NCBI RefSeq assembly: GCF_013002715.1
Contig: NZ_JABENB010000003.1
Location: 310,001 to 374,000, forward strand
Direction of reading: 5' to 3'
DNA from: Flexivirga aerilata
GTDB lineage: Bacteria; Actinomycetota; Actinomycetes; Actinomycetales; Dermatophilaceae
DNA length: 64,000 nucleotides
The notes under the pieces were generated by a model. That model was given only the letters and a program-made list of their open reading frames with translations. It was not told the origin of the DNA and ran no database searches. Of the stretch, positions 23,905-40,571 are shown one piece after another. Positions within the stretch are counted from its first letter, which is position 1. Each line of letters begins with the position of its first letter. A program made the position numbers and the translations under genes.

Positions 23905-24728
23905 CGCAACTCACCGCCCCGCGGCTCCTGGCGGCCGGCGACGACCCGGGCGACCACTTCCTCGAGCGTGTCGGAGGCGACGAAGCGCACGCCGTCGGCG
24001 TCGATCACCGCGACCGTCGGCCAGATCCGCCGACCGAGGTCCGGTCCGCCGGTGGCGGAGTCGTCGTCGGCGGCGTCATACAGCGCCTCGACGGTGACCC
24101 GCACCGCGGCGTCCTGGTCGAGGTCGCGGCGCCACAGCTTCTTCAGTGAGCCGCGCGCGAAGAGCGAGCCGGAGCCGACCGAGTGGTAGTCGTGCTCCTC
24201 GTAGGGGCCGCCGGTGACGTCGTAGGAGAAGATGCGGCCGCGGCCGGTGTCGATGTCGAAGCCGGCGAAGAGCGGCACGACCGACAGGCCCTGCATCGCC
24301 ATGCCGAGGTTGCCGCGGATCATCGTGGCGAGCCGGTTGGCCTTGCCGACGAGCGAGAGGCGGGTGCCCTCGATCTTCTCGTAGTGCTCCAACTCGACCT
24401 GGAACAGCCGGACCATCTCGATTGCCAGGCTCGAGGACCCGGCGATGCCGACCGCGGAGTAGTCGTCGGTCGCGAAGACCTTCTGCATCTCGTGGTTGGC
24501 GATGAGGTTGCCCATCGTCGCGCGCCGGTCGCCGGCGATCAGCACCCCGCCGTCGTAGGCCAGCGCGACGATCGTGGTGCCGTGCGGCACGTCGATCGGG
24601 GCGCCGCCCTGCACGCTGCGGGAACCCGGCACCAGGGTCGGCGCGTGGTCACCGAGGAAGTCGGTGAACGACGACGACCCCGGCCGGCTGTATGGCGACG
24701 GCAGCCGCGTGTCGTCGGCCTTGCTCAC
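23901..24728 (-). CDS. prcB: 20S proteasome beta subunit
   Basis: PrcB carries the proteolytic site. The 275-residue precursor has a propeptide of about 50 residues with the start region [11 protein letters not shown]. The sequence [13 protein letters not shown] follows, where the first Thr (about residue 51) becomes the N-terminal nucleophile after self-cleavage. RATMGN and the [11 protein letters not shown] loop of the beta-type fold are present. It starts with GTG overlapping the pup stop (GTGA), and prcA overlaps its end, giving a fully coupled pup-prcB-prcA series. Confidence 0.97.
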
Positions 24729-24925
24729 TGGCCGCCCTTCTGGACGAAACCGCGCACGAACTCCTCGGAGTTGGACTCCAGCACGCCGTCGATCTCGTCG
24801 AGCACGCTGTCGATGTCGCTGTCGAGCTCCTGCTTGGCGGGCGCCGTGGCCGGTGCCGGCTCGGGTGCGTCGTCGGCCGGGTCGGCGTCGCGCCGCTGCG
24901 GACTCTTGTGTTCCTGAGTGGCCAT
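24725..24925 (-). CDS. pup: Prokaryotic ubiquitin-like protein Pup
   Basis: Pup is the small disordered tag attached to proteins destined for the proteasome. The 66-residue product has a charged N-terminus, the [20 protein letters not shown] helix that binds the Mpa coiled coil, and the conserved ending [11 protein letters not shown]. It ends in Gln, so Dop must deamidate it to Glu before PafA can use it. Dop is encoded about 90 bases upstream on the same strand. Confidence 0.98.
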
Positions 24926-25015
24926 GCTCTCGTCCTCTCGTGCGGAGACTTCAACCCTAATCGTCGGTCCCGACAGATGCGACGGGTGTCTCGCGGCGTG
25001 CCGCGAGACGGGAGT

Positions 25016-26545
25016 TCACGCCCCGGTCGGCGCGTCCTGGGCGAGCAGCCGCAGGAGTTCGTCGGCGCTGCCCGCCTGCTCCAGCAGCCCGCCCACGTGC
25101 GACTTGGTGCCGCGTTCCGGCTCGAGGGTGGGCACCCGCTGCAGGCTCGGCTGGCTGCGTACGTCGAAGATCACCGAGTCCCAGGACGCCGCCGCGACCT
25201 CCTGGGGGAAGCGCGCGAGACAGGTGCCGCGGAAGTAGGCACGGGTGTCCTCGGGCGGCGCGGTGACCGCGGCGCGCACCGTGTCGTCGTCGACGAGTTG
25301 GTCGACGCGCCCGGCAGCGAGCATCCGGTTGAACAAGCCCTTGTCGGCGCGCACGTCGGACCACTGGATGTCGATCGCCTTCAGGCGCGGGTCGGACCAC
25401 TCGAGCCCGTCGCGTGCCCGGAAGCCTTCCAGTGCCTGCAGTTTCGTGACCCAGTCGACCTCCCGGGCGGCGTCCATGGGGTCGCGCTCGAGCGTCGTGA
25501 GCACCTGCTCCCAGCGCTGCATCACCTCGGCGGTGTCGGGATCGAGCTCCCCGCCATACGTCTGCTGGAGCCAGGTGTCGGCGAGTTCGTAATAACTCCA
25601 GAGCAATTGGACGCCGGTCATGGTGCGTCGGCCGGCCACCTCGACGGTCGCCTTGAGCGTCGGATCGTGCGACAGCCGGTGCAGCGACTCGACCGGCTTG
25701 TCGACGGTCAGGTCCTCGGTCACCGCGCCGGCCTCGATCATGCCGAGCACGAGGCTGGTCGTGCCGAGCTTGAGCAGGTTGCTGACGTCGCTGTGGTTGG
25801 CGTCGCCGATGATCACGTGCAGCCGGCGGTAGCGCTCGGCGACCGCGTGCGGCTCGTCGCGGGTGTTGATGATGGGCCGTTTGAGGGTCGTCTCCAGGCC
25901 GACCTCGACCTCGAAGAAGTCCGACCGCTGGGCCAGTTGGAAGCCGGGCCGGGTGGATTCGACGCCGATGCCGACCCGGCCGGAACCGCACATGACCTGC
26001 CGCGCCACGAAGAACGGGATGAGGTGGCGCACCACGTCCGCGAACGGCGTCGCACGGCTCATCAGGTAGTTCTCGTGGGTCCCGTAGGAGGCGCCCTTGC
26101 CGTCGGTGTTGTTCTTGTAGAGGTTGACGCCGGGCGTGCCGGGCACCGCGAGCAGTCCGACGGCCTCCCGCATGACCAGCTCGCCGGCCCGGTCCCAGGT
26201 GATCGCCGCGCGCGGCGTGGTCACCTCCGGCGAGCTGTATTCCGGGTGGGCGTGGTCGACATACAGCCGGGCGCCGTTGGTGAGCACCACGTTGGCGAGG
26301 GTGGGGTCTTCCTCGTCGGTCAGCTGGCTGGGGTCGGCGATCGCGCGGGCCATGTCGAAACCGCGGGCGTCCCGCAGCGGCGCCTCGTCCTCGTAGTCCC
26401 AGCCGGCGCGGGCCGCTCGCATGCCCTGCTGGGTGGCGTATGCCGTGACGACCCGCCCCGACAACACCATCGGGTTGGCGGTGGGGTCCCCCGGCACGGA
26501 GATGCCGTACTCGGTCTCGATGCCCATCACCCGGCGCACAGTCAT
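25016..26545 (-). CDS. dop: Depupylase / Pup deamidase Dop
   Basis: Dop converts the C-terminal Gln of Pup to Glu and also removes Pup from tagged proteins. It is a PafA homologue with the same glutamine-synthetase-like fold. The ATG gives MTVRRVMGIETEYGIS and 509 residues. RLYVDHAHPEYSSPE carries the conserved Asp region, and NNTDGKGASYGTHENYLMSR and [12 protein letters not shown] match both families. The segment at about 38-80, after the first strand (MRAARAGWDYEDEAP), is the loop that distinguishes Dop from PafA. The C-terminus ends LLRLLAQDAPTGA. Confidence 0.97.
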   Translation of the reverse strand: MTVRRVMGIETEYGISVPGDPTANPMVLSGRVVTAYATQQGMRAARAGWDYEDEAPLRDARGFDMARAIADPSQLTDEEDPTLANVVLTNGARLYVDHAHPEYSSPEVTTPRAAITWDRAGELVMREAVGLLAVPGTPGVNLYKNNTDGKGASYGTHENYLMSRATPFADVVRHLIPFFVARQVMCGSGRVGIGVESTRPGFQLAQRSDFFEVEVGLETTLKRPIINTRDEPHAVAERYRRLHVIIGDANHSDVSNLLKLGTTSLVLGMIEAGAVTEDLTVDKPVESLHRLSHDPTLKATVEVAGRRTMTGVQLLWSYYELADTWLQQTYGGELDPDTAEVMQRWEQVLTTLERDPMDAAREVDWVTKLQALEGFRARDGLEWSDPRLKAIDIQWSDVRADKGLFNRMLAAGRVDQLVDDDTVRAAVTAPPEDTRAYFRGTCLARFPQEVAAASWDSVIFDVRSQPSLQRVPTLEPERGTKSHVGGLLEQAGSADELLRLLAQDAPTGA

Positions 26546-29967: not shown

Positions 29968-31227
29968 TCAACCAGTATGCCGGGTCCGCCCTACCGGCCG
30001 CATCCAGGATTTGGCGAGCCACCAGAGGGTCGTGATCAGCAGGACCGCTCCCGCGCCGATGAACGCCGTTGGTGCTCCTACGGATTCAACCGATGACGTG
30101 AAAACGAACGTTGTCACGAGCAGCGGCAGCATCTGGGCGAGCAAGAGGATCGCCTGGTATCGAGCGAGCTGCCCCGGCGGCGTTGCTGCCAGGTAGGCCG
30201 GCCAGAGGTGGCCGGTGCACGCAGCCACGCCGACGCCGAGCAACACCGCGCCGGCGCCTGCGGCCCACGGGCTCGTGGCAAGTCCCATTCCGGTCAGTCC
30301 CACGGCTTGGGCGAGCAGGCCGGCGGTGACCGCCAGCAGCTGACGCCGCCAGACGCCCCACCGCGCGATGACCGCGGTGACGGGCAGGCCACCGACGATC
30401 CATCCGGCTTCGAGCAGGCCCGACACCGTTGCACCCCAATCGTTTTCACGAGCCAGCAACGGCGTGCCGAGCACCACGGCCGGGAGCACGACTGCGGCGA
30501 TGACGGCGGTTGCCACGAGAGTGCGCCGCAGCGTGAGGTCGTCCCACACGTCCCGCAGCGTTCGCCGGAGAGGGACACGCTCCGAGGTCGCCGGAGCAGC
30601 ACGCAGCGGTGGGCGGATCAGGACGAGCACGGTGAGGACGACTGCGAAGCTCACCGCGTCGATCACCGCCGCGCCGGTCAGACCGAGTGCGGCCACCACG
30701 ACCGCGCCGAGCGCGGGGCCGGCAAGACGGGCCAACCGTGCGAACGTGCTGTTCACCGCCAACGCGCGCGGCAGTGCCGCCCCGTCGACGAAGAGACGTG
30801 GCAGCACTCCGGTGGCGGGCAGGTAGAAGGCATCGACCACCCCGGCCAGGACCGACACGGCCACCAGGAGGGCGGCCTGCACGCCGTCGAGCGAGGTCCA
30901 GACCGCCAGGGCGACGCACATGACGAACATCGCCAGGTCGCCGGCCACCAGCACCTTCCGGATGCCGAGCCGGTCGGCGGTCAGCCCGCCGACCAGCAGC
31001 AGCGCGATGCGCGGCGCGACGACCACGGTCGTGACCACGCCGGCGAGATTGGCGGACAATCCCGTTGCATACCAGACGATCCCGAACTCCAGGATCCCGG
31101 TGCCGAGCGTGCTGATCGCCGTCGCACCCACCCAGATCAGGTATGGCGCAGGCAGCGGCTCGCGCACCCGCACCGCGGCCCGCGCAGTCCCCGCGTCCGC
31201 CGTCGCGCGCCGTGTGCCGACCTTCAC
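29968..31227 (-). CDS. MFS transporter coupled to the MerR-clamp regulator
   Basis: This 419-residue major facilitator has about 12 membrane segments. The first helices (LIWVGATAISTLGTGILEFG) and the loop GGLTADRLGIRKVLVAGD match the family's motif A pattern, suggesting a proton-driven exporter. The GTG start overlaps the stop of the upstream MerR-type gene (GTGA) and has a GGGAG site 5 bases upstream. The tight coupling to a MerR regulator suggests drug or metabolite efflux controlled by that regulator. The substrate is unknown. Confidence 0.9.
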   Translation of the reverse strand: MKVGTRRATADAGTARAAVRVREPLPAPYLIWVGATAISTLGTGILEFGIVWYATGLSANLAGVVTTVVVAPRIALLLVGGLTADRLGIRKVLVAGDLAMFVMCVALAVWTSLDGVQAALLVAVSVLAGVVDAFYLPATGVLPRLFVDGAALPRALAVNSTFARLARLAGPALGAVVVAALGLTGAAVIDAVSFAVVLTVLVLIRPPLRAAPATSERVPLRRTLRDVWDDLTLRRTLVATAVIAAVVLPAVVLGTPLLARENDWGATVSGLLEAGWIVGGLPVTAVIARWGVWRRQLLAVTAGLLAQAVGLTGMGLATSPWAAGAGAVLLGVGVAACTGHLWPAYLAATPPGQLARYQAILLLAQMLPLLVTTFVFTSSVESVGAPTAFIGAGAVLLITTLWWLAKSWMRPVGRTRHTG

Positions 31228-32315
31228 GGCCGCTCCCGGCGGACCGGCATCACCACCGTGGTGAACGTGCCCTGGTCGGCCGACCGCACCACGGCGGGAC
31301 GCGACGGGTCGTCGGCGAGCTCGAGGAGCACCTCCGGCCCGATGCTGGTGCTCACCGCCTGGGCGAGCAGGCCCGGGCGGAAGGCAGCGGCCAGCGCCGC
31401 GCCCGTGCACACCGCGGGCAGCCGCACGCCGTGCCGGTCACCATCGAGGCGCAGGTCCAGATGCTCCGCACCCGTGGTGAGCACGAGGACGTCGTCACCG
31501 CCCCCGCGGCCGGTGCGGTCGATCTCGTCGAGCAGGCGCTGCCGGTCGACGGTGACGCGTGCCGCGGTCGCGGGCAGACCGGCGAGAACCGCCTGATAGG
31601 AGGGGTATTCGGCCTCGATGGTCGGCACGGCGAGGCGGGCATCCGTCGCTTCGAGGGCAGCCTCGTGGTCGGTCGCCCGCAGCCGGACCCGGTCACGGCG
31701 GCTCGCCCACGACGCCAGCTCGGGCAGCGACGCGGACGGCACGACCAGGGCACGATCCGGTCCGCTCACCTCGTGCAGCGGCAGACTCCGCACCGCCATC
31801 CAGTAGCGGTCGGTGGCGACCACCGTGAGGCCGTCGACGGTGATCTCGAACAGCACACCCTGCAGCGCAGGAATGTCCGGCGCGGCGGCCGCGGCCGGCG
31901 ACACCTGCCGGATCGCGCTGGCCAGCTCCGGGCCCGGCATCGTCGCCGTCGTGGGCTCCCGGTCGCTCTCCCCCGCGGCGCGCAGCGATGCGATGACGTC
32001 GTCGGTCGTCTCCCGTGCGCGCCGGGCCCGACCGGCGGTCTCCTCGGCATACGACCGCAGGACGGCCCGTGCTTGGTCCGGGTCCCCGTCGAGCACCAGC
32101 CGAATGTCCTGCAACGGCAGGCCGATCGCCCGCAACCGGCTGATCGCGATGCCGCGCCGCTCCTGCGCCGCCGTGTAATAGCGGTAGCCGGAGGCGCCGT
32201 CGACCTGGTCCGGCCGCAGCAGCCCGCAGTCGTCGTAGAACCGCAGCGCGCTCGGGGTCAGCCCGACCAGCCGCGCGAACGAGCTGATGGTCAGCAGGGG
32301 TTGTTGATCGTGCAC
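31224..32315 (-). CDS. MerR-type regulator fused to two DNA sliding-clamp (DnaN-like) domains
   Basis: The 363-residue protein has a MerR winged-helix domain at about 7-77 (TISSFARLVGLTPSALRFYDDCGLL, then GYRYYTAAQ) and a short helical linker at about 78-120. Two regions follow that read like domains II and III of the DNA polymerase III beta clamp. Domain II covers about 127-243, with GVLFEITVDGLTVVATDRYWMAVRSL, LVVPSASLPELA and PTIEAEYPSYQAVL. Domain III covers about 247-360, with FRPGLLAQAV, PEVLLELADDPSRPAVVR and the ending VVMPVR, close to the clamp's MPMR. Domain I is missing. The clamp part may sense a ligand, dimerise or touch DNA. The start is GTG. The MFS gene is translated from its stop. 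Confidence 0.88.
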   Translation of the reverse strand: MHDQQPLLTISSFARLVGLTPSALRFYDDCGLLRPDQVDGASGYRYYTAAQERRGIAISRLRAIGLPLQDIRLVLDGDPDQARAVLRSYAEETAGRARRARETTDDVIASLRAAGESDREPTTATMPGPELASAIRQVSPAAAAAPDIPALQGVLFEITVDGLTVVATDRYWMAVRSLPLHEVSGPDRALVVPSASLPELASWASRRDRVRLRATDHEAALEATDARLAVPTIEAEYPSYQAVLAGLPATAARVTVDRQRLLDEIDRTGRGGGDDVLVLTTGAEHLDLRLDGDRHGVRLPAVCTGAALAAAFRPGLLAQAVSTSIGPEVLLELADDPSRPAVVRSADQGTFTTVVMPVRRERP

Positions 32316-32330
32316 GCCGTCAGCTTGCAG

Positions 32331-32352
32331 CTTCAGCCAAGTCGAAGGTCAA
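32331..32352 (-). promoter_or_regulatory. Candidate MerR-type operator/promoter upstream of the MerR-clamp gene
   Basis: On the minus strand a TTGACC box (32347-32352) is followed directly by the imperfect dyad CTTCGAC-TTG-GCTGAAG. A dyad just after the -35 is the usual position for MerR-family operators, and autoregulation would be expected. No good -10 hexamer is evident, so this is tentative. Confidence 0.4.
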
Positions 32353-32452: not shown

Positions 32453-34048
32453 ATGAGAAAAGCCCGTCACGCCTCTCTCCTGCTTGCCTTCACCGGGGCG
32501 ACCGTCGCCGTTGCCACCGCGACCAGCAGCGGCGCGTTCGCCGCACCGGGTGCCGACTCCGGCCGGGTGCGGTCGACCACCGCCGTGCGGCTCGACACTG
32601 CCCAGACCGACGGCGCGGTGGGCGCGGTGACCTCCGACCGTGGCCGCTACGGCCTGTCGGCCGACCAGAAACTCACCAAGAAGTCGGCGCTGCTGGACAG
32701 CACGGGCACCACGCACGTGCGGGTGGCGCAGTCCTACAAGGGGCTGCCGGTGATCGGCGGTGACACGGTGATCCACCGCACCAAGCGCGGGCAGGTGTCG
32801 CTCTCACGGACGCTCACCAAGCCGCTCTCGCTCGACGTGAAAGCGGCGAAATCCGCTCCGGCACAGTCGCGTTCGGCGAGCAAGGCGACCCTGGTGGTGG
32901 ACGCGACGGCGAAGCCGCGTCTCGCCTGGCAACAGACGGTCACCGGTGTGCAGGCGGATGGGACGCCGAGTCGGAAGCTGGTCTACACCGATGCGAAGAC
33001 CGGTGCGGTGATTCGCTCGGAGGAGCGGGTGATGACCGTGGGTGGGCAGGGCAATTCGTTGTATGGCGGGACGGTGCCGCTGGAGTTGACCCAGAGTGGT
33101 GGCAACTACCTGATGAAGGACCCGACCCGCGGCAACACCTACACGGTCGATGTCCGCAACGGCACGGATGTGGCCGTCGTCTGTCCCCTGCTCGGCATCT
33201 TCTGTGCCTCGGGTCCGGTCTTCTCCGGTCCGGACACCAGCTTCGGCAATGGCACGATGTCGAGTCGGGAGTCTGCGGGTGTGGATGCGCAGTTCGGCAC
33301 GGACGAGACGTGGGATTACTACAAGACCAACTTCGGCCGTAACGGGATCTTCAACACCGGCAAGGGGTCCTTCAACCGGGTCCATTACGGGCGGAACTAT
33401 GTGAATGCGTTCTGGGACGGCACGAAGATGACGTATGGCGATGGGGATGGTGCGAACTACGGGCCGTTGACGTCGTTGGACGTGGCCGGGCACGAGATGA
33501 GTCACGGGGTGACGGAGAACTCGGCGAACCTGACCTACAGCGGGGAGTCGGGTGGTTTGAACGAGTCGACCAGTGACATCTTCGGCACGATGGTGGAGTT
33601 CTTCTCGGCCAATGCCAAGGACACCGGTGACTACCTGATCGGGGAGATGTTCGACAAGACCGGTAAGGGTCTGCGGCGGATGGACAACCCGGCCGCCGAC
33701 GGCAAGAGCGCCAACTGCTGGACCTCGAGCGTGGGCAGCCTGAATGTGCATTACTCGTCGGGGGTGGGTAACCACTTCTACTACCTGCTGGCCGAGGGGT
33801 CGGGTGCCAAGACGATCAACGGTGTCGCGCACAACTCCCCGACCTGTGACGGCAGCAGCGTGGCTGGGATCGGCCGCAGTGATGCCCAGCAGATCTGGTA
33901 CCGGGCGTTGACGGTCTACATGACCAGCAGCACCAACTACGCCGGTGCCCGCACCGCCACTCTCAACGCCGCCAAGGACCTGTATGGCGCGACCTCCGCG
34001 CAATACACCGCGGTCGGCAAGGCCTGGAGCGCCGTCAACGTCAAGTGA
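32453..34048 (+). CDS. Secreted M4-family (thermolysin-like) neutral metalloprotease
   Basis: The 531-residue preproenzyme has a signal peptide of about 31 residues (MRKARHASLLLAFTG, ending SSGAFA). An FTP/PepSY-type propeptide runs to about residue 200 and includes VAQSYKGLPVIGGD. The M4 catalytic domain follows. HEMSH at about 347-351 gives two zinc-ligand His and the catalytic Glu, GLNESTSDIFG gives the third zinc ligand (Glu about 371), and NVHYSSGVGNHFYYLL carries the transition-state His. It should be secreted and activated by propeptide cleavage. Third-position GC is visibly lower in the catalytic part than in neighbours. A hairpin follows the stop. Confidence 0.95.
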   Translation: MRKARHASLLLAFTGATVAVATATSSGAFAAPGADSGRVRSTTAVRLDTAQTDGAVGAVTSDRGRYGLSADQKLTKKSALLDSTGTTHVRVAQSYKGLPVIGGDTVIHRTKRGQVSLSRTLTKPLSLDVKAAKSAPAQSRSASKATLVVDATAKPRLAWQQTVTGVQADGTPSRKLVYTDAKTGAVIRSEERVMTVGGQGNSLYGGTVPLELTQSGGNYLMKDPTRGNTYTVDVRNGTDVAVVCPLLGIFCASGPVFSGPDTSFGNGTMSSRESAGVDAQFGTDETWDYYKTNFGRNGIFNTGKGSFNRVHYGRNYVNAFWDGTKMTYGDGDGANYGPLTSLDVAGHEMSHGVTENSANLTYSGESGGLNESTSDIFGTMVEFFSANAKDTGDYLIGEMFDKTGKGLRRMDNPAADGKSANCWTSSVGSLNVHYSSGVGNHFYYLLAEGSGAKTINGVAHNSPTCDGSSVAGIGRSDAQQIWYRALTVYMTSSTNYAGARTATLNAAKDLYGATSAQYTAVGKAWSAVNVK

Positions 34049-36571: not shown

Positions 36572-38311
36572 TCACAGGTATTGCCCGGTGCCCTTGATCG
36601 AGTCGATCGAGCGACCCGGTTCGGCGCCGTCCTTGCCGTCGATGAGCGTGCGGATGTAGACGATCCGTTCGCCCTTCTTGCCGGAGATCCGCGCCCAGTC
36701 GTCGGGGTTGGTGGTGTTGGGCAGGTCTTCGTTCTCCTTGAACTCGTCCACGCACGACCGCAGCAGGTGCTCGACCCGGATGCCCTTCTGACCGGTGGTC
36801 AGCTGCTCCTTGATCGCCATCTTCTTGGCGCGGTCGACGATGTTCTGGATCATCGCCCCGGAGTTGAAGTCCTTGAAGTAGAGGACCTCCTTGTCGCCGC
36901 TGGCGTAGGTGACCTCCAGGAACTTGTTCTCGTCGATCTCGGTGTACATCCGCTCGACGGTCGCCTGGATCATCGCGGCCACGGTGTCCTCGAGCGAGCC
37001 GTTGTTCTCCGCGACGTCGTCCGCGTGCAGCGGGAGGGTCGGCACGAGGTACTTGGAGAAGATGTCGCGCGCGCTCTCGGCGTCGGGGCGCTCGATCTTG
37101 ATCTTCACGTCGAGCCGCCCGGGCCGCAGGATCGCCGGGTCGATCATGTCCTCACGGTTGGAGGCGCCGATCACGATGACGTTCTCCAGCCGCTCGACAC
37201 CGTCGATCTCGGCCAGCAGCTGCGGCACGATCGTGGTCTCCACGTCGGAGGAGACGCCCGACCCGCGGGTGCGGAAGAGTGACTCCATCTCGTCGAAGAA
37301 CACCACGACGGGCGTGCCCTCGGACGACTTCTCCCGGGCCCGCTGGAAGATCAGCCGGATGTGCCGCTCGGTCTCCCCGACATACTTGTTGAGCAGCTCC
37401 GGGCCCTTGATGTTGAGGAAGTAGGCGGTCTCGCCGCGCCCGGTCTTCTCGGCGACCTTGCGCGCCAGGTTTGCGGCAACCGCCTTGGCGATCAACGTCT
37501 TTCCGCATCCGGGAGGACCGTAGAGCAGCACACCCTTCGGCGGCCGCAACGCGTGCTCGCGGAAGAGATCGGCGTGCAGGTAGGGCAGTTCGACCGCGTC
37601 CCGGATCTGCTCGATCTGGCCGGCGAGCCCGCCGATGTCCTCGTAGTGGATGTTGGGCACCTCCTCCAGCACGAGGTCGGCGACCTCGGCCTTCGGGATG
37701 CGCTCGAAGACGAAACCACTGCGGGTGTCGAGCAGCAGTGAGTCGCCGGCCCGGATCGGCTCGCCCTCCAGCGAGGCGGCGAGCCGGCAGACCCGTTCCT
37801 CGTCGGCGTGCGCGACCACGAGCACCCGGTCCGTGCCGAGCAGTTCCTTGGCCTGGACGAGTTCGCCGACCTGCTCGAAACCAACGGCGGCCACGACATT
37901 GAGCGCCTCGTTGAGCATGACCTCGCGGCCGGGCTGCATGTCGTCGGGCTCGATCGAGGGGCTGACCGCGACCCGCATCTTCCGGCCGCTGGACAGGATG
38001 TCGGCGGTCGCGTCGTCATACGTCTCGATGACGATGCCGTATGACGCAGGCGGCTGCGCGAGGCGGTCGACCTCACCCTTGAGGTTGACGATCTGCTCGC
38101 GGGCTTCCTTGAGGGTGCGCACGAGTCGCTCGTTCTGGGCGGAGAGCGTCCCGACCGATGCCTGCAACTGGCGCACCTGGTCGGCGAGTTCGCGCGGCGT
38201 GCCACGACCCGGGCCGGTGCCACCGAGCCGGTTGCGCAGGTCGCGCACCTCGCGCTGCAGGCTCTCGGCGCCTTCCTCGGGCGTGCCGGGCTGCTGGGGC
38301 TGGTCGTTCAC
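36572..38311 (-). CDS. mpa: Proteasomal AAA+ ATPase Mpa/ARC
   Basis: Mpa is the hexameric unfoldase that recognises pupylated proteins and feeds them into the 20S proteasome. The 579-residue protein has an N-terminal coiled coil (about 15-85) that binds Pup, the tandem OB domains (about 88-220), and an AAA+ domain with Walker A GPPGCGKT at 265-272 and Walker [12 protein letters not shown]. The C-terminus is GTGQYL, the Gln-Tyr-Leu tail that docks into the proteasome. The start is GTG with GGAGG 6 bases upstream. In relatives dop follows directly, but here a 10 kb block separates them. Confidence 0.97.
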
Positions 38312-38384
38312 GTCGGCCTCCTTCGCGCAGAAGCACCAGTGGTGCTTGCGAGTGATGCCACCCGACCCTAACTCGCGAACCTGG

Positions 38385-40571
<2,187 letters not shown>

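Follow-up and report, generated by a model that had tools for sequence, protein, structure and literature searches.

BmrR is a MerR sensor that controls a multidrug pump through a long-spacer promoter, an arrangement that we propose here for a protein whose effector domain is clamp-like, whereas that of BmrR is GyrI-like. Sensor domains that resemble a drug target have a precedent in BlaR1/MecR1. The MerR proteins TipA and AlbA bind and neutralise a drug, and TipA raises its own expression, according to the available text of PMC6078987. The natural antibiotics griselimycin and mycoplanecin bind the pocket of the sliding clamp, and their biosynthetic clusters hold a second DnaN gene (griR and mypR) for which a role in self-resistance has been proposed, as described in the accessible portion of PMC10817943.

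Here, we describe a computational analysis of a MerR-clamp fusion encoded in a stretch of 64,000 nucleotides from Flexivirga aerilata (hereafter the window). Neither such a fusion nor a sensor of clamp inhibitors appeared in the titles or abstract openings among the literature matches listed, which is weak evidence of absence. We place moderate confidence in the reading that the protein is an autoregulated MerR-type ligand sensor in which a decoy of the sliding clamp serves as the effector-binding domain. The features of the locus are as follows.

32322 to 32352, minus strand: predicted MerR-type promoter/operator, with a -35 element TTGACC (32352-32347), a 19-bp spacer with a dyad, and a -10-like CAAGCT (32327-32322).
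31224 to 32315, minus strand: merR-clamp fusion gene, 363 aa, with a GTG start at 32315.
32082 to 32294, minus strand: MerR winged helix-turn-helix, residues 8-78 (Pfam MerR_1, residues 9-76, and model helices).
31971 to 32081, minus strand: long helix, residues 79-115 (helix 79-115 in the secondary structure of the model).
31566 to 31955, minus strand: clamp domain II, residues 121-250 (Pfam DNA_pol3_beta_2 at 127-238 and structure match).
31236 to 31565, minus strand: clamp domain III with a trimmed ring edge, residues 251-360 (structure match and gap profile).
31797 to 31814, minus strand: TDRYWM motif of pocket subsite I, residues 168-173, E. coli 172-177 (alignment and the residue list in the available part of PMC11139829).
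31239 to 31250, minus strand: MPVR pocket strand, residues 356-359, E. coli 362-365 (alignment and the same residue list of PMC11139829).
29968 to 31227, minus strand: efflux-type transporter of the MFS, 419 aa, whose gene shares 4 bases with that of the regulator.

A preliminary description of this DNA had recognized a MerR domain joined to the second and third clamp domains, with domain I missing, and matches to Pfam, NCBIfam and clamp structures agree with that layout. The MerR_1 match reaches 47.2 bits against a Pfam cut-off of 21.6, indicating a MerR-type winged helix-turn-helix at the N-terminus, and the predicted helix that follows it is expected, from what is known of the MerR family, to act as the dimerisation coiled coil. 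The match to the central domain of the DNA polymerase III beta subunit (DNA_pol3_beta_2) lies above its Pfam cut-off and that of the C-terminal clamp domain below; NCBIfam model TIGR00663 covers residues 123-359 with an E-value of 2.6e-21, its 76 bits falling short of the equivalog cut-off of 137.65. Domain I of DnaN is missing, and the helix-turn-helix and long helix stand in its position. Compared with clamp structures, the predicted model of the C-terminal part has a clamp fold rather than an unrelated one, with domains II and III in the mutual arrangement normal for a clamp. The genome has its own full-length dnaN elsewhere (contig C1, near 837391-838146), and the fusion is thus an extra clamp piece. 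Relative to a 96% identical sister, the fusion gene has a dN/dS of 0.11 overall and of 0.08-0.16 in each part. An artefactual frame joining two genes was considered and is ruled out by this low dN/dS together with the recurrence of the fusion, so that the single gene assumed in the preliminary description stands.

The fusion is widespread. A search profile built from 11 fusions gave at least 164 bits for fusions and at most 121.5 bits for the next matches, which were lone MerR or DnaN proteins. With this profile the fusion was detected at no fewer than 33 places, one of them broken (G350) and one truncated (G260), in at least 32 of 394 genomes of the class, and, within the window's family, in at least 42 of 186 genomes; both counts are lower bounds, the first pass having scored five or ten candidates per genome. 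A genome scan returned at least 545 relatives, and the fused frame was present in all of the best 80, which sit close to the window's own branch and belong to Flexivirga, Streptomyces, Nocardia, Amycolatopsis, Saccharopolyspora, Kribbella, Rhodococcus and others. Nine plasmid records carry the fusion, and the seven that bear a product name call it just 'MerR family transcriptional regulator'. A single-sequence scan of viral contigs found no fusion, and seven partial matches in phage records were each to the MerR or the clamp part only. In a tree of domains II-III, one branch separates 45 fusions from 19 DnaN proteins (support 89, not starred), a topology compatible with a single origin. At L164 (in G350) and at G561:C9:96891-97453 the fusion is broken into separate frames, perhaps representing decaying copies.

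Two sets of fusions underlie the comparisons below. The set of 153 loci omits L164, in which the fusion is split over two frames, and includes L162, which runs off its contig, and L120, which is truncated. E. coli numbering was transferred through a joint alignment of 151 fusions, 41 DnaN proteins and the E. coli protein; L162 and L112 are outside this alignment and L120 is inside it. Two duplicates (L165 of L125, and L233 of L109) are counted within both sets.

A clamp fold in a transcription factor raised the possibility, put forward in the preliminary description, that the regulator encircles DNA or forms a half-ring and thereby senses DNA topology. We reject this idea as extremely improbable. 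It could draw on the model, which keeps the clamp fold and the position of domains II and III relative to each other, but domain I is absent and the ring edge has been lost. Ile272 and Leu273, which close the ring, align to gaps in 99% and 98% of the 151 fusions, respectively, the exact placing of these gaps being alignment-dependent, and the interface residue Glu304 is kept in 3% of dereplicated fusions. Basic residues that are invariant in DnaN are mostly lost as well (R269 kept in 7% and R235 in 18% of dereplicated fusions), and the model of one short relative holds about half of domain III. The four channel helices have a mean net charge of -2.8 in fusions versus -0.7 in DnaN (window, -1), a more negative average that likewise speaks against encirclement, weakly, since the ranges overlap and 62 of the 151 fusions reach the lowest DnaN value.

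The clamp pocket, in contrast to the ring-forming parts, is largely kept. Residues were assigned to the pocket following the list given in the available part of PMC11139829. In the 151 fusions, eight of the twelve positions of subsite I hold the DnaN residue at frequencies of 84-99%: Leu155 (99%), Thr172 (99%), Arg at position 174 (99%), Tyr175 (89%), Arg176 (93%), Leu177 (84%, with Met in 15%), Pro242 (97%) and Met362 (99%). Of the remaining four, positions 246, 247 and 360 are variable within both DnaN and fusions, and position 152, Leu in 41 of 41 DnaN proteins, is Leu in just 28% of fusions. Subsite II is less uniform. Pro363 is found in 99% of fusions and Val at position 364 in 72%, but Asn320, invariant in the 41 DnaN proteins, remains in 11% and is replaced by Asp in 53%, and Arg365, which hydrogen-bonds mycoplanecin, is retained in 51%.

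The pocket is conserved beyond the rest of the clamp part. We took the 80 positions at which one residue occurs in at least 90% of 22 dereplicated DnaN proteins and compared them with 106 dereplicated fusions. The DnaN residue is present in a mean of 77% (median 94%) of fusions at the 12 pocket positions, and in a mean of 31% (median 13%) at the 68 others (Mann-Whitney p 5e-5, in a test that treats positions as independent); when non-pocket positions with at least 30% gaps are removed, leaving 60, p is 1.3e-4. Eight non-pocket positions (138, 142, 145, 153, 171, 173, 324 and 346) are also retained at 86% or more, so part of this conservation pattern may reflect the fold. Conversely, positions invariant in DnaN such as Tyr359 and the Trp at 184 have lost that residue in every fusion, which favours a pocket-driven reading. 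The combination of a largely kept pocket and lost ring-forming parts suggests a possible role of the fusion in detecting drugs that bind the clamp and in activating a pump.

Two other uses of the pocket deserve consideration. The clamp pocket is the docking site of known clamp partners, as stated in the available text of PMC11139829, and the fusion might accordingly take up the clamp-binding motif of a polymerase, repair protein or other cellular partner and signal replication stress instead of the presence of a drug. As this idea would have it, most of subsite I, the part that accommodates the C-terminal hydrophobic pair of that motif, is nearly unchanged; subsite II, where the Gln of the motif is bound, has drifted, and we regard the idea as unlikely. 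Alternatively, the clamp fold may have been recruited merely as a convenient pocket for hydrophobic compounds unrelated to clamp inhibitors, making the fusion a general multidrug sensor. Other MerR drug sensors are promiscuous, according to the portion of PMC6078987 available, and the pocket is altered in the window's branch (Arg176 to Trp172, Leu177 to Met173, Asn320 to Arg313), so that the ligand in this lineage may differ. The near-constancy of most of subsite I across the fusions goes beyond what free drift toward a new class of ligand would leave, and we give this second alternative, too, only a small share of the probability.

Upstream of the start codons of the fusions lies TTGAC[C/T], a 19-bp spacer containing the dyad C[CT]TC...GA[AG]G, and then an xAxxxT box; MerR promoters have spacers of 19-20 bp, as given in the available part of PMC9909328. 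The motif TTGAC[CT][TC]T occurs between -300 and +45 at 150 of the 153 loci, whereas ten mononucleotide shuffles gave 0-2. At 123 of those 150 loci it begins 37 or 38 bases ahead of the called start, which places the end of the xAxxxT box six or seven bases before the start codon. TTGAC followed by 19 bp and xAxxxT is present at 145 of the 153 loci, 121 of them with this same placement. With [CG]AxxxT as the downstream box, the spacer is 19 bp in 133 loci, 20 in one and 21 in three; no locus has 17 or 18. Complementary bases occupy dyad positions 6 and 20 at 114 of 148 sites versus 76 expected if the two positions were independent, an excess to which shared ancestry adds. In the window, the -10-like CAAGCT ends 6 bases before the GTG of the fusion gene, and the transcript may therefore be leaderless.

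In the 4.0 Mb window genome the exact pattern has a single match, the 32322-32352 site at the fusion operon, and the reversed control has none. Among 33 fusion-bearing genomes, 31 contain a match somewhere and 30 have one at a fusion, the three genomes with no exact match at their fusion being G259, G185 and G242; the reversed pattern matched once in the 33 genomes, in G003. Other fusion-bearing genomes have up to three further matches, several beside other MerR genes. Those at G503:C1:5180439, G247:C3:2724208, G155:C1:200054 and G001:C34:73433 adjoin MerR-like matches that lack a clamp part, and a self-promoter of this kind may thus be common across a broader group of actinobacterial MerR proteins. 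Given the presence of the pattern at fusions and its lone match in the window genome, the fusion protein most probably governs transcription of its own gene and, in the window, of the pump gene downstream; we infer that the fusion protein binds the 32322-32352 site. Having its own gene behind a MerR-type promoter is a trait of TipA/AlbA-type proteins that the fusion shares. A pocket conserved above its surroundings, a lost ring edge and a long-spacer promoter of its own are best read together as the marks of a ligand sensor, and they support the earlier suggestion that the clamp fold serves as an effector-binding module.

The transporter gene of the window lies adjacent to the fusion gene on the same strand and overlaps it, as had been noted before, and its product matches Pfam MFS_1 (E 3e-24) and MFS_3 (E 1.7e-11) and, below the cut-off of that model, NCBIfam TIGR00900 (E 1.3e-26). 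The sensor-pump pairing inferred from this arrangement holds in all five searched genomes of the window's genus. As a general rule it is rejected: phmmer with the window pump found a related MFS gene next downstream, on the same strand and within 150 bp, at 12 of the 153 loci, two of which are fragments as called (L145 and L182) and one a duplicate (L165, of L125). A Bcr/CflA efflux pump follows the fusion at L197, where the count places it under 'something else', and an MFS gene lies 232 bp away at L120; these two were added by hand, giving 14 MFS proteins. On a quick tree of 149 fusions in which many forks are weak, the pump label (12 rows) changes at least seven times.

A TPR protein is the commoner partner, occupying the corresponding downstream position at 65 of the 153 loci, a share inflated by the best 80 of the at least 545 relatives (53 of these 80 versus 12 of the 73 other loci; for MFS genes, 3 of 80 versus 9 of 73, the window included). 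The remaining loci are followed by something else (7), a gene on the opposite strand (39), a same-strand gene more than 150 bp away (28) or the end of the sequence (2). The TPR proteins are 96-253 aa long as called (median 202; for example, L100:7414-8058 and L111:7610-8116), overlap the fusion gene by 4 bases in some loci, and have a conserved GFYPSLHLNLA-like stretch. Pfam recognizes TPR repeats in some of them, and three proteins searched against NCBIfam gave no match. At eight loci (L138, L139, L140, L141, L142, L144, L127 and L146) the same strand encodes a 532-aa protein whose start lies 346-420 bp beyond the fusion; the one tested, from L139, is ABC-F, ribosomal-protection-like by NCBIfam. 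In the window, a divergent gene (32453-34048) begins 137 bp from the fusion start, and a HEMSH motif suggests that its product is a thermolysin-type metalloprotease. The fusion operon is situated between two regions about 10 kb apart (24725-26527 and 36572-40567) that presumably encode Pup, Dop and the proteasome ATPase.

These neighbours bear on both alternatives to a sensor of clamp-binding drugs. That partner genes differ between lineages would suit a general multidrug sensor. For a sensor of replication state, an efflux pump is an ill-suited target, and the partner proteins have no conserved clamp-binding motif: any match was seen in 2 of 66 TPR proteins and 4 of 14 MFS proteins, at corresponding places in the window pump and a close sister and elsewhere in the other two. 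Within the fusion itself the motif occurs in 18 of 154 proteins.

The decoy of the sliding clamp is the preferred explanation. Without ligand, a MerR dimer would occupy its own promoter and keep it off. A hydrophobic ligand that otherwise binds the replication clamp would enter the decoy pocket, and the liganded dimer would distort the long spacer such that RNA polymerase transcribes the regulator and the pump. The extra regulator would represent added binding capacity, a trap, and the pump would export the compound. To judge from the pocket, the ligands are probably clamp-binding natural products, the likeliest being of the griselimycin/mycoplanecin kind, or other compounds that use that pocket; from its autoregulation, the fusion protein possibly acts as a trap. 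Efflux-type MFS partners at 12 of 153 loci and the Bcr/CflA pump at L197 favour this explanation. Against it, pumps directly downstream are a minority partner, and the drift of subsite II and the altered pocket of the window leave room for other ligands. Additionally, no second DnaN gene was found near fusions among the called genes of the surrounding stretches examined, and a direct link to griselimycin-like clusters is thus missing. A wider proposal, which we advance tentatively and hold to be a little short of evenly balanced, is that the fusions are widespread actinobacterial target-mimic regulators, in which the druggable pocket of the bacteria's own clamp, with the ring-forming parts removed, has been wired to a MerR switch. 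A clamp-targeting antibiotic would then bind the decoy and induce more decoy, which acts as a trap, together with a pump in some of the lineages. On this proposal the family would mark organisms that are exposed to clamp-binding natural products or make them, many of these compounds being still undiscovered.

Antibiotics that act on the clamp pocket have validated it as a target. If the decoy explanation is correct, this regulator family would provide a ready-made biosensor for clamp-binding natural products. It would also account for a replication fold inside a transcription factor and imply that a drug sensor can be built by copying the target of the drug.

The fusion can be compared with three known systems. 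With DnaN it shares the fold and arrangement of domains II and III and most of pocket subsite I; it differs in lacking domain I, in its trimmed ring edge, in being joined to a DNA-binding domain, and in coexisting with a true dnaN elsewhere in the genome. GriR and MypR, as presented in the available text of PMC10817943, resemble it as spare actinobacterial clamp copies tied to clamp-binding antibiotics, a tie that for the fusion is presumptive; they are, however, encoded by DnaN genes within biosynthetic clusters, whereas the fusion is a regulator whose clamp part is truncated. TipA (TipAL/TipAS) of Streptomyces and AlbA of Klebsiella, in the accounts available, have the same overall plan of a MerR helix-turn-helix, a long linker helix and a C-terminal effector part, and in these proteins drug binding itself protects, to which the putative trapping role of the fusion may be likened. 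The drug-binding parts of TipA and AlbA are described there as helical (TipAS-like), whereas in the fusion this part is folded like the sliding clamp, itself a target of antibiotics.
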